Source of the DNA: Bacillus sp. ISL-37
GTDB lineage: Bacteria > Bacillota > Bacilli > Bacillales > Cytobacillaceae
Length of the DNA: 64,000 bases
NCBI RefSeq assembly: GCF_018613315.1
Contig: NZ_JAGGQL010000001.1
Location: 1-64,000, forward strand
Direction of reading: 5' to 3'
Each line of letters starts with the position of its first letter. The stretch's first letter is position 1. A program made the position numbers and the translations under genes. Under the pieces are notes generated by a model that saw only the letters and a program-made list of their open reading frames with translations, had not been told where the DNA came from and ran no database searches. This document shows positions 4,066 to 31,142 of this stretch, piece after piece.

Positions 4066-6612
4066 ATGGCACAAAAACCTCAAACTAGAGAGGAGCGCCG
4101 AAGACAACAGGCAGCCAAGACTAAGAAAACAAAAGGCAAGAAAGCGAATAAAGGAATGTTCAAGAAAATTTTCCTTACGCTGATTGCCCTTGGCATCATC
4201 GGCATGTTGACCGGAATCGCTACCTTCGCATTCATGATACAGGATACTCCAAAACTTGATGAGTCCTTGCTCAAAGACCCTATATCTTCTAAGATCTATG
4301 ATAAAGATAAAGAGCTTGTAACAGAAGTAGGCTCGCAGAACCGGGATTATGTAGCTTATGAGGATATACCAAAACTAGTGGAAAACGCCTTTTTAGCGAC
4401 AGAGGATGTAAGATTCTATAAACATAATGGTATCGACGTAATCCGTCTTGGAGGGGCCGTTATAGCAAACATAACTGACGGCTTTGGATCCGAAGGTGCT
4501 TCCACCATTACACAGCAAGTTGTCAAAAACTACTTCCTTGGCTTTGAAAAAACGATCTCAAGGAAAGCACAAGAAGCATGGCTAGCTTACCAGCTTGAAC
4601 AAAAGTATACAAAGCAGCAAATCTTTGAAATGTATGTAAATAAAATTTATATGTCAGAGAATATGCACGGTGTCCTGACTGCATCAAAGACATACTTTGG
4701 TAAAGATGATTTAAGTGAGCTTGAGCTTCATGAAGCCGCTCTGCTTGCAGGTATGCCTCAGAGCCCTAATAATTACAATCCTTTTACGAACCCTGAAAAA
4801 GCGGAGAAGCGAAGGAACACTGTATTATATCTGATGCATCAGCACGGGATCATTTCACAGGAAGAGAAAGAAAATGCACAAAAGATCCCTGTTGAATCCA
4901 GCCTTGTTAAGGAAGAAAACAGAAAGAATAAGAATGAAGAACCCTTCGATGCTTTTGTTGACATGGTAATCGAGGAAGTAACAGAAAAAACCGATTTTGA
5001 TATTTTTTCCGATGGACTTGAAATTTATACAACACTAGATCAAAATGCACAAAAACATGTAGAGAACATCCTTAATACAGATGCTGCTGTGCAATTCCCT
5101 AATGATGAAATGCAGGCCGGCATTACGCTGCTTGATACGAAAACCGGGGAAATACGCGCAATTGGCGGCGGCAGGAAGCAGCAGGTAAAGCGAGGCCTCA
5201 ATTACGCCATCGATGTAACAAGACAGCCAGGATCAACCATTAAGCCAATCCTTGACTATGGACCTGCGATCGAGCATTTGCGTTGGGGTACCTACCATAT
5301 GCTTGAAGATAAACCTATGACCTATTCAAACGGAGATCCAATTGGAAACTGGAACGACAAATATAACGGCATCATGACAATGAGGATGGCCCTGGCAAAA
5401 TCGATCAACATCCCTGCCCTACAGGCCTTTCAGGCAGTAGGTCTTGATAAGGCAAGAGAATTCGGGGTTAAACTTGGTTTAACACTGAATGATCCTTTTT
5501 ATGAATCAGCTTCGATTGGTGCTAAAGAAATAGCTCCAATTGAAATGGCTGGTGCATATGCAGCCTTTGGTAACAATGGTTTCTTTACGGAGCCATACTC
5601 AGTCAAAAAGGTTGTACTCCGTGACAAGACAGAAATTGATCTAACACCTGAGACTGAAGTGGTCATGAAAGATTACACTGCCTTCATGATTTCCGATATG
5701 CTGAAGACGGCGATCAAACAAGGTACAGGAGCAACTTACGCAAACATTCCAAACCTTCATGTTGCCGGAAAGACAGGAACAACGAACTACACACCGGAAG
5801 ATATCAAAAAATGGGGAATTAAAAATGGCGGTGTCCCTGATTCTTGGTTTGTAGGCTATACAACAAGATATACTGCATCCGTTTGGACTGGTTATAGCGA
5901 CAGAAAGACGGCACTGTACGGTAATGAACAAAAAATATCACAGACTTTGTTCAAGAATCTGATGACCTATGTATCTAAAGACGTAGATACACCTGACTTT
6001 ACTGTTCCAAAGAGTGTTGAAAGAGTTAAAATCGAAAAAGGTACGATGCCTGCAAAGCTTGCAAGTGAGTATACTCCAAAGGATGAAATCCTTTACGAGT
6101 GGGCTGTAAAGGGCAATGTTCCTAAGGAAACTTCCAAGAAGTTTGAAAAGCTTGAAACTCCTTCAAAGCTTGAAGCAAAATACGATGAATCGAAAAATGA
6201 AATCATCCTGAGCTGGGAATTCAATCAGGAGAACAAAGAGGATATCCAATTCGAGGTTACCGCATCCCTTGATGAGGGTCCTGAGCAACCACTGACCACT
6301 ACAGCAGAGACAGGATTAAAAATCGCCAATGCAGTTCCAGGCGGAATTTATTCATTCAAAGTCACAGCGATACGTGATGAACAGCGTTCTGATCCAGCCA
6401 CCCTTAAAGTCGAAGTTCCAGAACCACTCCTGCCAGAACCAGAAGATGGCGAGAATGAAAATGAAGAAGATGAGAATGAAGTAGGAAATGAAGATGGCCA
6501 AGGTAATGGTAATGGTAATGGTAATGGTAACGGTAACGGAAATGGAAATGGTGACGGTAACGGCGACGGAAATAATAATGGGAACAACAATGGTGATGGG
6601 GATGACGATTAA
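4066..6612 (+). CDS. ponA: Penicillin-binding protein 1A/1B (class A)
   Basis: An 848-residue bifunctional glycosyltransferase/transpeptidase that polymerises and crosslinks peptidoglycan. A basic cytoplasmic tail (1-33) precedes a transmembrane helix (about 34-57). The GT51 domain carries ATEDVRFYKHNG with catalytic E113 and GASTITQQ. The transpeptidase domain has STIK (catalytic S390, K393), SIN (446-448) and KTGTT (569-573). A fibronectin type III-like segment lies at about 690-780. The C terminus is an acidic stretch followed by a Gly-Asn/Gly-Asp repeat tail, encoded by a slippage-prone simple repeat (about 6500-6600). AAAGGA lies upstream of the ATG. It is cotranscribed with recU and ends at a strong hairpin. 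Confidence 0.97.
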   Translation: MAQKPQTREERRRQQAAKTKKTKGKKANKGMFKKIFLTLIALGIIGMLTGIATFAFMIQDTPKLDESLLKDPISSKIYDKDKELVTEVGSQNRDYVAYEDIPKLVENAFLATEDVRFYKHNGIDVIRLGGAVIANITDGFGSEGASTITQQVVKNYFLGFEKTISRKAQEAWLAYQLEQKYTKQQIFEMYVNKIYMSENMHGVLTASKTYFGKDDLSELELHEAALLAGMPQSPNNYNPFTNPEKAEKRRNTVLYLMHQHGIISQEEKENAQKIPVESSLVKEENRKNKNEEPFDAFVDMVIEEVTEKTDFDIFSDGLEIYTTLDQNAQKHVENILNTDAAVQFPNDEMQAGITLLDTKTGEIRAIGGGRKQQVKRGLNYAIDVTRQPGSTIKPILDYGPAIEHLRWGTYHMLEDKPMTYSNGDPIGNWNDKYNGIMTMRMALAKSINIPALQAFQAVGLDKAREFGVKLGLTLNDPFYESASIGAKEIAPIEMAGAYAAFGNNGFFTEPYSVKKVVLRDKTEIDLTPETEVVMKDYTAFMISDMLKTAIKQGTGATYANIPNLHVAGKTGTTNYTPEDIKKWGIKNGGVPDSWFVGYTTRYTASVWTGYSDRKTALYGNEQKISQTLFKNLMTYVSKDVDTPDFTVPKSVERVKIEKGTMPAKLASEYTPKDEILYEWAVKGNVPKETSKKFEKLETPSKLEAKYDESKNEIILSWEFNQENKEDIQFEVTASLDEGPEQPLTTTAETGLKIANAVPGGIYSFKVTAIRDEQRSDPATLKVEVPEPLLPEPEDGENENEEDENEVGNEDGQGNGNGNGNGNGNGNGNGDGNGDGNNNGNNNGDGDDD

Positions 6613-29100: not shown

Positions 29101-29556
29101 TTAATCCTCTTGCCATTTCTCCGTAAACAAAGATAATAGCTGTTTCACCTGGTCCTCCACGATGGCCACCTTTTGCTGCTCCTGCATATGCTCTAAAGAC
29201 AATGACGGCAGCCATAACAGGTTACCAGTTAACTCCTTCTCTTGCTGCCTCCAGCTGCTGTCAGAGGTAACATAAAACACATGCTTGAACTGCTTGTCCA
29301 ACAAAGTGTTCTCCCATTCCTTCAGGGCTTTTATGCTAGCTTCATGTCCTTTTATGTATACAAAATCAGGAAATAGGAAGATACGCCCCTTAAACTGCTT
29401 TTCAAGCTGTGTAGTAAGGATTCCTATGAATTCTGCCATCGAGGCATTTTGTTTCATGTCATCCCCGAAAGAAACTGGCAATAGCGGCACGATCGCCGTG
29501 TCAACATATTCCGCCGCTGTCTGGTACATCTCAACATCTGCTGCCACCCATCTCAT
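29101..29556 (-). CDS. ypiF: YpiF, DUF2487 family protein
   Basis: A 151-residue soluble protein beginning MRWVAADVEMYQTAAEYVDT, of the YpiF/DUF2487 family, function unknown. No catalytic motif is evident. It lies upstream of qcrA as in B. subtilis, but the tandem palindromic array separates it here from ypiB, its usual neighbour. Confidence 0.85.
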   Translation of the reverse strand: MRWVAADVEMYQTAAEYVDTAIVPLLPVSFGDDMKQNASMAEFIGILTTQLEKQFKGRIFLFPDFVYIKGHEASIKALKEWENTLLDKQFKHVFYVTSDSSWRQQEKELTGNLLWLPSLSLEHMQEQQKVAIVEDQVKQLLSLFTEKWQED

Positions 29557-29730
29557 AAAACCAACTCCATCATTCTATTAGGCCGCTGTCGTTTCTACTT
29601 AAATGAGTTACATAAGATACTCTACGACGAAAAGCCTGCTATTCACTCCATACCTATAATATCACGATTAAAACTCGTTTTCGAATGGTTTGTCAGGTTA
29701 GGACTTTTCCGCGGCTCCTCCATTGCGTTT

Positions 29731-30435
29731 TGTTTGAAGTGAGGTTTGGTTCGGACATTTCGATGGTCACTGCCTTGTGGTTTTGTCCGAAGTGAGGGTC
29801 GGTTCGGACATTTCAACGGACCTTCCCTTGTGTTTTCTCCGAAGTTGTATCAGGTTCGGACATTTCAACTGTCTCTTCCTTGTGTTTTGTCCGAAGTAGG
29901 ATTAAGTTCGGACATTTCAACAGCCTCTCCCTTGAGTTTTGTCCGAAGTAGGGTTAGGTTCGGACATTTCAACAGCCTCTCCCTTGAGTTTTGTCCGAAG
30001 TAGGGTAAGGTTCGGACATTTCAACAGCCTCTCCCTTGAGTTTTGTCTGAAGTAGGGTCAGGTTCGGACATTTCAACTGTCTCTTCCTTGAGTTTTGTCT
30101 GAAGTAGGGTCAGGTTCAGACATTTCAACCGCTCCCACCTTGAGTTTTGTCCGAAGTTGGATCAGGTTCGGACATTTTAACAGCCTCTCCCTTGAGTTTT
30201 GTCTGAAGTTGGATCAGGTTCAGACATTTCAACCGCTCCCACCTTGAGTTTTGTCCGAAGTAGGATCAGGTTCGGACATTTCAACTGTCTCTTCCCTTGT
30301 GTTTTGTCCGAAGTAGGATCAGGTTCGGACATTTCAAGGGGCCTTCTCTTGTGTTTTGTCCGAAGTGAGGGTCGGTTCGGACATTTCAACGGACCTTCCC
30401 TCTGGTTTTGTCCGAAGTAGGATCAGGTTCGGACA
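29731..30435. repeat. Tandem array of 14 palindromic 52-53 bp units
   Basis: Fourteen direct repeats; right arms begin at about 29750, 29803, 29855, 29907, 29959, 30011, 30063, 30115, 30167, 30219, 30271, 30324, 30375 and 30428. Each has an 8-base arm TGTCCGAA, an 11-base loop (typically GTAGGGTCAGG), the arm TTCGGACA, then ATTTCAAC and a C/T-rich linker of about 20 bases ending in TTTTG. Units 8 and 10 change both arms together (TGTCTGAA/TTCAGACA), keeping pairing. The 989-bp gap between ypiF and ypiB contains nothing else recognisable. Confidence 0.95.
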
Positions 30436-30515
30436 TTTTCACACCAGCCCGTTCAGTTCTTGTCCAAAAGAAAGTGATTTTGCACCAAATCAGCGACTCA
30501 AGTGCTAATACCAGG

Positions 30516-30547
30516 CAAAATAAAAAGCCTGCTATCAAAAGCAAGCT
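30516..30547 (-). terminator. Terminator after ypiB
   Basis: Minus-strand AGCTTGCT/AGCAGGCT stem (one G-U pair) overlapping the ypiB stop, followed by TTTTATTTTG. Confidence 0.65.
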
Positions 30548-31100
30548 ATAACGAATTGACTGCGCCCAATCTTTTTAATTGTTCTGTGAGATGTTCGAAG
30601 GCTTCCTGGTCCTGGCTGTCCAGCGCTTCATCGATCAAGGTAAGCAGTTTATCTTTTTGGAATTTTTGAATACTCTCCTCAAGAAATCTCTCTGCTACCA
30701 TCTTGTCACTTTCACTGATTTGGAGCTGGCCTGGAACATAAGGGTTTTCTTCCAGCACGGCCGCAAACTGGTGGGCTTTGTTTGAAGCGTGGAAATTCAA
30801 TTGGATGTAAATTTCTTCTTCCCTGTTCAAACGAATGTCGTGAAAAGACTTTTCAGCATCTGTCGTCATCACGTTTTCTTTGAAGAAGCGGAATGGTACT
30901 TCTTCCACGCAATGGGTCGACATCACTAATCCCCTTGGACAATATTGTGCATTTTCCACAAAGTGCACCTTTTCCATCAGCTGGTCATGGCTCATCAAGT
31001 AGTTAAGGATCCAAACGCATTCCCGCCTTTTAAGCTGGTAATGGTTTAAAAACCAGCGGATAAAATCCTTTTTCTCGTTGACAGATACAGGGGTTGTCAT
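30546..31100 (-). CDS. ypiB: YpiB, UPF0302 family protein
   Basis: A 184-residue soluble protein of the UPF0302/YpiB family with an N-terminal helical domain ([23 protein letters not shown]) and acidic C-terminal helices. The family has been implicated in post-translational control of membrane-lipid/LPS or cytochrome bc proteins only tentatively; treat function as unknown. Start at 31100 follows GAGGAGGG. It is 42 bases downstream of ypiA. Confidence 0.85.
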
Positions 31101-31142
31101 TTTTGAATCCCTCCTCTGCATAACTCAAATTTTTTGTTAAGG

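Follow-up and report, generated by a model that had tools for sequence, protein, structure and literature searches.

A 52-bp tandem palindrome array between ypiB and ypiF, and the placement and orientation of related arrays in Bacillales

The locus and the repeat class to which it belongs

The window analysed here (64,000 nucleotides of contig NZ_JAGGQL010000001.1 of Bacillus sp. ISL-37, a genome that we infer to be that of a Mesobacillus) carries 14 head-to-tail repeat units between ypiB and ypiF (Table 1). Each unit consists of a 27-bp palindrome, TGTCYGAA-N11-TTCRGACA, in which 8-bp arms (TGTCYGAA/TTCRGACA) enclose an 11-bp centre, followed by a 25-bp linker. Units start at 29732, 29784, 29836, 29888, 29940, 29992, 30044, 30096, 30148, 30200, 30252, 30305, 30357 and 30409, a spacing of 52 throughout except for a single 53. 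TRF reports a period of 52 with 12.7 copies, 86% matches and a score of 838 at 29780-30438, while its 104/156-bp periods extend the array to 29693 and reveal internal higher-order repeats. Both arms are intact in 12 of the 14 units and one arm is damaged in the other two; the broken left arm at the ypiF end and an extra relic at 30461 indicate that the edges of the array decay. In the direction of transcription, the array starts ~90 bp past the predicted ypiB terminator, which is shared by the other Mesobacillus species read, and stops short of the predicted ypiF promoter. Elsewhere in the window, TRF finds two short tandem repeats, one at 387-471 with a period of 30 bp and one of GGTAAY type (6/18/24 bp) at 6494-6573.

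Table 1. Coordinates of the array and its flanking features in the window
Feature	Position	Strand	Basis
52-bp tandem palindrome array, 14 units	29731..30435	-	TRF, unit listing, window GC skew -0.11
Unit at the ypiF edge of the array; left arm eroded, right arm TTCGGACA intact	29731..29758	.	Unit listing
Unit 3; left arm with one substitution (TCTCCGAA)	29836..29862	.	Unit listing
Last intact unit; 90 bp to the ypiB terminator	30409..30435	.	Unit listing
Fifteenth, broken relic unit in register (TGTCCAAA...)	30461..30487	.	Unit listing
Intrinsic terminator predicted immediately past the ypiB stop, AGCTTGCT-TTTGAT-AGCAGGCT TTTTATTTT	30526..30547	-	
Predicted ypiF (-qcrABC) promoter, TCGAAA-17-TATTAT, TG before the -10	29656..29684	-	Conserved in Mesobacillus
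ypiF (DUF2487), downstream of the array	29101..29556	-	Pfam PF10673
ypiB (UPF0302 + IDEAL), upstream of the array	30546..31121	-	Pfam PF08864/PF08858

The original prediction, which described 14 palindromic units at this place, is confirmed by TRF and by an in-register listing of the units; it was also right about the 11-base loop, the C/T-rich linker on the plus strand, the non-coding character of the array and its location between these two genes. Its statement that the array fills a gap agrees with several relatives without an array, which have only about 100-110 bp there. It could name no described element with such arms, but the array is a member of a class of 52-nt tandem repeats, the published description of which it fits. 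These repeats were found in about 30% of Bacillus species, with a constant length and a variable sequence, and were suggested to work through small RNAs or a polymerising nucleoid protein (Subirana and Messeguer; PMC8161180). As in that class (Subirana and Messeguer 2020, 2021), the period is 51-53 bp, the unit is non-coding and present in at least four regular copies, each genome holds many arrays of constant length and different sequences, and families have their own characteristic short signals, often together with their reverse. The arms and centre length of the published B. alkalitelluris family 71_52_7 (TGTCTGAAGTaGCCTnGnGTTCGGACAGc...) equal those of the ypiB-ypiF array, and B. selenatarsenatis, listed as rich in 52-nt repeats, carries the orthologous array. 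Moreover, in the families published for B. coagulans, B. litoralis, B. thermoamylovorans and B. alkalitelluris, several consensus units contain TGTC-N19-GACA. The 2021 paper states that sequences are not conserved between species and is silent on orientation, terminators and palindromes (PMC8161180), whereas a shared TGTC-N19-GACA frame, replication polarity and placement after terminators are described here which, together with a constraint on the arms, go beyond what that paper describes. CRISPR loci resemble the array in having a palindromic repeat, here of 27 bp, and a spacer of constant length, but the linkers within an array are near copies of each other, not unique spacers, and there are tens of arrays per genome.

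Abundance, turnover and geometry of the arrays

The arm and loop motif (two mismatches at most) occurs 310 times in the 4.74-Mb draft genome, as against five times for a reversed-pattern control, and the 310 copies sit in arrays, several of them at contig ends. This search had been proposed in the original prediction, which fared well in that units are not scattered singly, but less well in that the position of the array is kept in part of the genus only. At the DNA level the array has matches in 18 of the 21 genomes from the window's genus and in none of 20 from outside it; its arms and geometry recur across about a dozen named genera, including Mesobacillus, Neobacillus, Cytobacillus, Evansella, Texcoconibacillus, Natronobacillus, Calidifontibacillus, Robertmurraya, Bacillus (B. 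methanolicus) and Peribacillus. Within the order, 69 of the 399 genomes and 30 of the 135 genera sampled contain doublets, defined as two TGTC-N19-GACA frames 25 bp apart (one hit for the reversed control), and the lack of a match in the other 330 genomes implies that the frame is dispensable. Outside the order, doublets were present in 3/229 sampled genomes, all three of one family. Carriage of the arrays by phages was rejected on the background level of doublets in viral contigs (19 chance-like instances in 2.9 million).

An unbiased TRF scan of half of the complete genome of a relative (G015, a Mesobacillus) detected 50 arrays with a period of 52-53, 28 of which carry TGTC-N19-GACA in at least two units. 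The remaining 22 were scored as lacking it, most of them being built of other palindromes (e.g. GGGCACA/TGTNACC) or belonging to a 53-bp CCCTTAT family. A frame universal to all 52-bp arrays was thus rejected: the common denominator is the period, and the TGTC-N19-GACA frame defines the largest superfamily. It also follows that a single protein cannot serve all arrays. In 2.4 Mb of G015 there are 49-50 arrays of several families, arrays make up about 1.2% of the sampled Mesobacillus genome, and a Mesobacillus genome holds roughly 50-100 intergenic 52-nt tandem arrays. Draft assemblies are broken by them, several contigs of the window's genome ending in arrays. Records titled 'Chryseobacterium sp. 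ISL-80' (JAGGQZ...) also bear these Bacillales arrays (L059, L069, L086, L088, L102, L103, L107 and L113); JAGGQZ010000014.1 and a contig from the window's genus (C6 of G013) are both 258,916 bp long, and the organism name on those records looks wrong.

At the ypiB-ypiF site itself, an array is present in 8 of 15 informative Mesobacillus genomes, and the position is thus shared by no more than part of the genus. The number of units among the Mesobacillus genomes read is 14, 10, 23, 12, 6, 3, 3, 2 or 0, and the flanking terminator and promoter are conserved across them. In G008 the gap (L149) holds, in place of the TGTCYGAA array of its relatives, a different 53-bp array with ACCCTTAT/ATAAGGGT arms, and the site in G032, from another family, holds a 52-bp array with TGTCCGTCAT/ATGAAAGACA arms. 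Hot spots common to different genera were looked for, but there were few shared gene neighbours, near the estimated chance number. A site that is kept only in part of a genus, with 0 to 23 copies, leaves room for the neutral expansion that the original prediction had named as its alternative.

The geometry is far stricter than the sequence. In 109 named loci, which were found with loops of 9-14 and linkers of 20-30 permitted, 790 of 797 units have an 11-bp loop and 578 of 597 close neighbouring pairs a 25-bp linker, although loops and linkers vary in sequence from array to array. Drift in sequence to such a degree without insertions or deletions would not be expected under neutrality. This near-invariant 27+25 bp geometry, maintained in about a dozen named genera with differing loops and linkers, favours the multi-site DNA element phased by five helical turns that had been predicted. 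Within arrays, heterozygosity is 0.029 for TGTC/GACA vs 0.176 for the linker, and lower for the arms in 106 of 107 arrays; outer arm positions are thus about six-fold less variable than linkers, which suggests that units are maintained individually. The one variable arm position, 5 (C/T), and its counterpart 23 (G/A) are independent (Fisher p 0.64 over units and p 1.0 over arrays), which fits recognition of a TGTCY half-site better than selection on a paired stem, and in a search for compensatory stem covariation only the first flanking pair (columns 28-52) stood out, not 5/23. In addition, the stems of one family (in G018), TGTCAAGA/TTGTGACA, are imperfect throughout.

Placement after terminators and orientation along replication

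Among 76 arrays for which both neighbouring genes are known, these genes are co-directional in 45 cases, convergent in 25 and divergent in 6. According to gene and terminator calls made by simple scripts, a predicted terminator lies between stop codon and array at 56 of 101 facing gene ends, a frequency about equal to that at control gene ends (116/246), vs only 12 of 101 beyond the array. Because terminators precede them, the arrays would mostly lie outside mRNAs. At the locus in the window, the ypiB terminator (30547-30526) likewise comes before the array, which is not the arrangement of a structured 3'-UTR RNA, inside the transcript and ahead of the terminator.

The original prediction made no mention of replication polarity. 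On four complete chromosomes (G140, G015, G018 and G010), 84 of 89 positioned arrays are oriented with respect to replication, with flips at dnaA and dif (binomial 1.4e-19), although the Mesobacillus arrays are partly shared by descent and the 89 are thus not all independent. In G140, which belongs to another family of the order and has dnaA at 0 and dif at 2.581 Mb, 28 of 29 arrays conform and the flip occurs at dif: between 0.2 and 2.33 Mb, 17 of 18 arrays have GTTTTGTC-N19-GACAYTT on the minus strand, whereas between 2.65 and 4.33 Mb all 11 have it on the plus strand. A blind two-orientation EM on 31 arrays of G015 agrees with the chromosome arm, as set by dnaA (4.411 Mb) and dif (1.885 Mb), in 29 cases. 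The two exceptions are both blocks of the ypiB-ypiF array, in which the loop is reversed, yet the flanks and the purine-rich strand conform. Polarity was recovered in this genome by EM on whole units or on palindromes only, but not when four flanking bases were added to the palindrome, probably owing to flanks that vary between subfamilies; in the named loci, T-rich flanks alone were too crude a criterion of orientation. The GGGCACA family of G015 is likewise polar (8/8), as are 20 of 22 arrays of the TGTCAAGA family in G018, with flips at dnaA (4.462) and dif (2.203), and all seven listed arrays in G010. The window conforms as well: its plus-strand GC skew is -0.11 and the purine-rich reading strand of its array (GAAA-TGTC..GACA-AAAC) is the minus strand, the leading strand as judged by GC skew. 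A counter-example is the coagulans-like chromosome G236, which is mixed (7 of 12 positioned arrays conform). Also in G236, two 52-bp arrays with different arms abut in opposite orientation (C1:320315-321284).

Gene direction does not explain this polarity, and neither does base composition by itself. Arrays between co-directional lagging-strand genes (3/3) and convergent arrays follow replication, and the leading strand has a purine excess of 0.228 within arrays (47/49) vs 0.039 in array-free intergenic DNA (456/684). The same G015 sample (L205-L324) also contains 24 tandem arrays with a period of 20-21 bp, which belong to another published Bacillus class; their purine-rich strand is the leading one in 19 of 24, a weaker bias than that of the 52-bp arrays. 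The polar orientation of the arrays in both chromosome arms, which is not clean in G236, resembles that of KOPS/SRS and other replichore-polar motifs, which flip at the origin and dif, but those are scattered octamers, not tandem 52-bp arrays. The SpoIIIE SRS octamer GAGAAGGG, which in the genome sample occurs at 0.023 per kb on the leading and 0.007 per kb on the lagging strand, was found 0 times in 28 kb of arrays, and a role as SRS guides is therefore disfavoured. Chi-like AGCGG is only mildly enriched in arrays.

A possible role in chromosome handling

Any account of the arrays has to accommodate their strict geometry, their place after terminators and before promoters, the constraint on arms within arrays and, on the tested Mesobacillus and G140 chromosomes, their polarity. 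Our preferred reading, to which we would give a probability of about one half on the strength of these sequence patterns, is that they are replication-polar, helically phased DNA-binding arrays for a putative host protein. Each 27-bp TGTC-N19-GACA dyad would be a double-stranded site for a dimer of this protein and, since dyads lie five helical turns apart, dimers would align on one face of the DNA and might bind cooperatively along the array. Through its asymmetric flanks and linker the array would be directional with respect to the fork, and once bound it may thus act in a process that itself runs from ori to ter, candidates being chromosome organisation or segregation, or fork passage. Units would be gained, lost and homogenised via slippage or unequal recombination, and may survive in post-terminator DNA because no transcript is disturbed there.

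The main competing explanation is that of a polar replication satellite with no function. If replication slips on the template of the lagging strand and only one orientation is stable or expands, polarity would result, and arms would persist because intact palindromes template duplication. Much of the turnover described above is what such a satellite would leave behind (a copy number that ranges from 0 to 23 at a single site in closely related genomes, arrays in decay, an array in G008 whose arms are quite unlike those found at this site in its relatives, internal 104/156-bp higher-order repeats and a patchy distribution), and it could account for the polarity too. On its own, however, it leaves unexplained why one 52-bp length and an identical 27+25 frame are found with unrelated linkers in 30 genera, and expansion driven by pairing would sit oddly with a non-covarying arm position and with the imperfect stems of the TGTCAAGA/TTGTGACA family. 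We therefore regard it as possible but rather doubtful as the whole explanation.

Transcribed structured RNAs, either 3'-UTR hairpins or small RNAs acting as transcript stabilisers or protein sponges, are one of several options proposed by Subirana and Messeguer and were also entertained in the original prediction. Each unit is able to form a hairpin, and 52-nt repeats appear in B. coagulans RNA-seq, i.e. are transcribed (PMC8625621). Yet arrays tend to follow terminators, their orientation tracks replication next to lagging-strand genes too, the sense strand shows no clear excess of variants that allow G-U pairing (17 vs 11 arrays), the variable arm position does not covary and an Rfam search of the array gave nothing above threshold, only chance matches, all of which makes an RNA role very unlikely. 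Orientation along replication, together with a place past the stop of transcription, suggests chromosome handling rather than such a role.

REP/BIME elements are intergenic palindromes downstream of genes that are depleted between divergent genes. The arrays are like them in being palindromic, intergenic, frequent between convergent and rare between divergent genes, and the action of a RAYT or IS200/IS605-type Y1 transposase on the single-stranded lagging-strand template would jointly explain palindromes, intergenic sites and replication polarity. Mobilisation of this kind nonetheless seems highly improbable: neither the window's genome (G000) nor the array-rich G015 has a match to Y1_Tnp (PF01797), which is common in array-free genomes, and the units form strict 52-bp head-to-tail, replication-polar arrays instead of dispersed singlets or alternating pairs.

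If the arrays are indeed protein-binding sites, a broader and more tentative proposal can be made, which we hold to be conceivable rather than probable, namely that TGTC-N19-GACA arrays, and probably other 52-bp families too, form the DNA side of a system for chromosome handling in Bacillales that has gone unrecognised, with a putative dedicated binding protein whose specificity has drifted between genera. Chromosome-handling arrays, phased and replication-polar, would then sit between the transcription units of these bacteria. The 52-nt repeats have so far been enigmatic, being constant in length and supposedly without sequence conservation. Their frame, their place after terminators and their orientation turn them into a testable question, i.e. 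which protein binds TGTC-N19-GACA and which ori-to-ter process needs the array.
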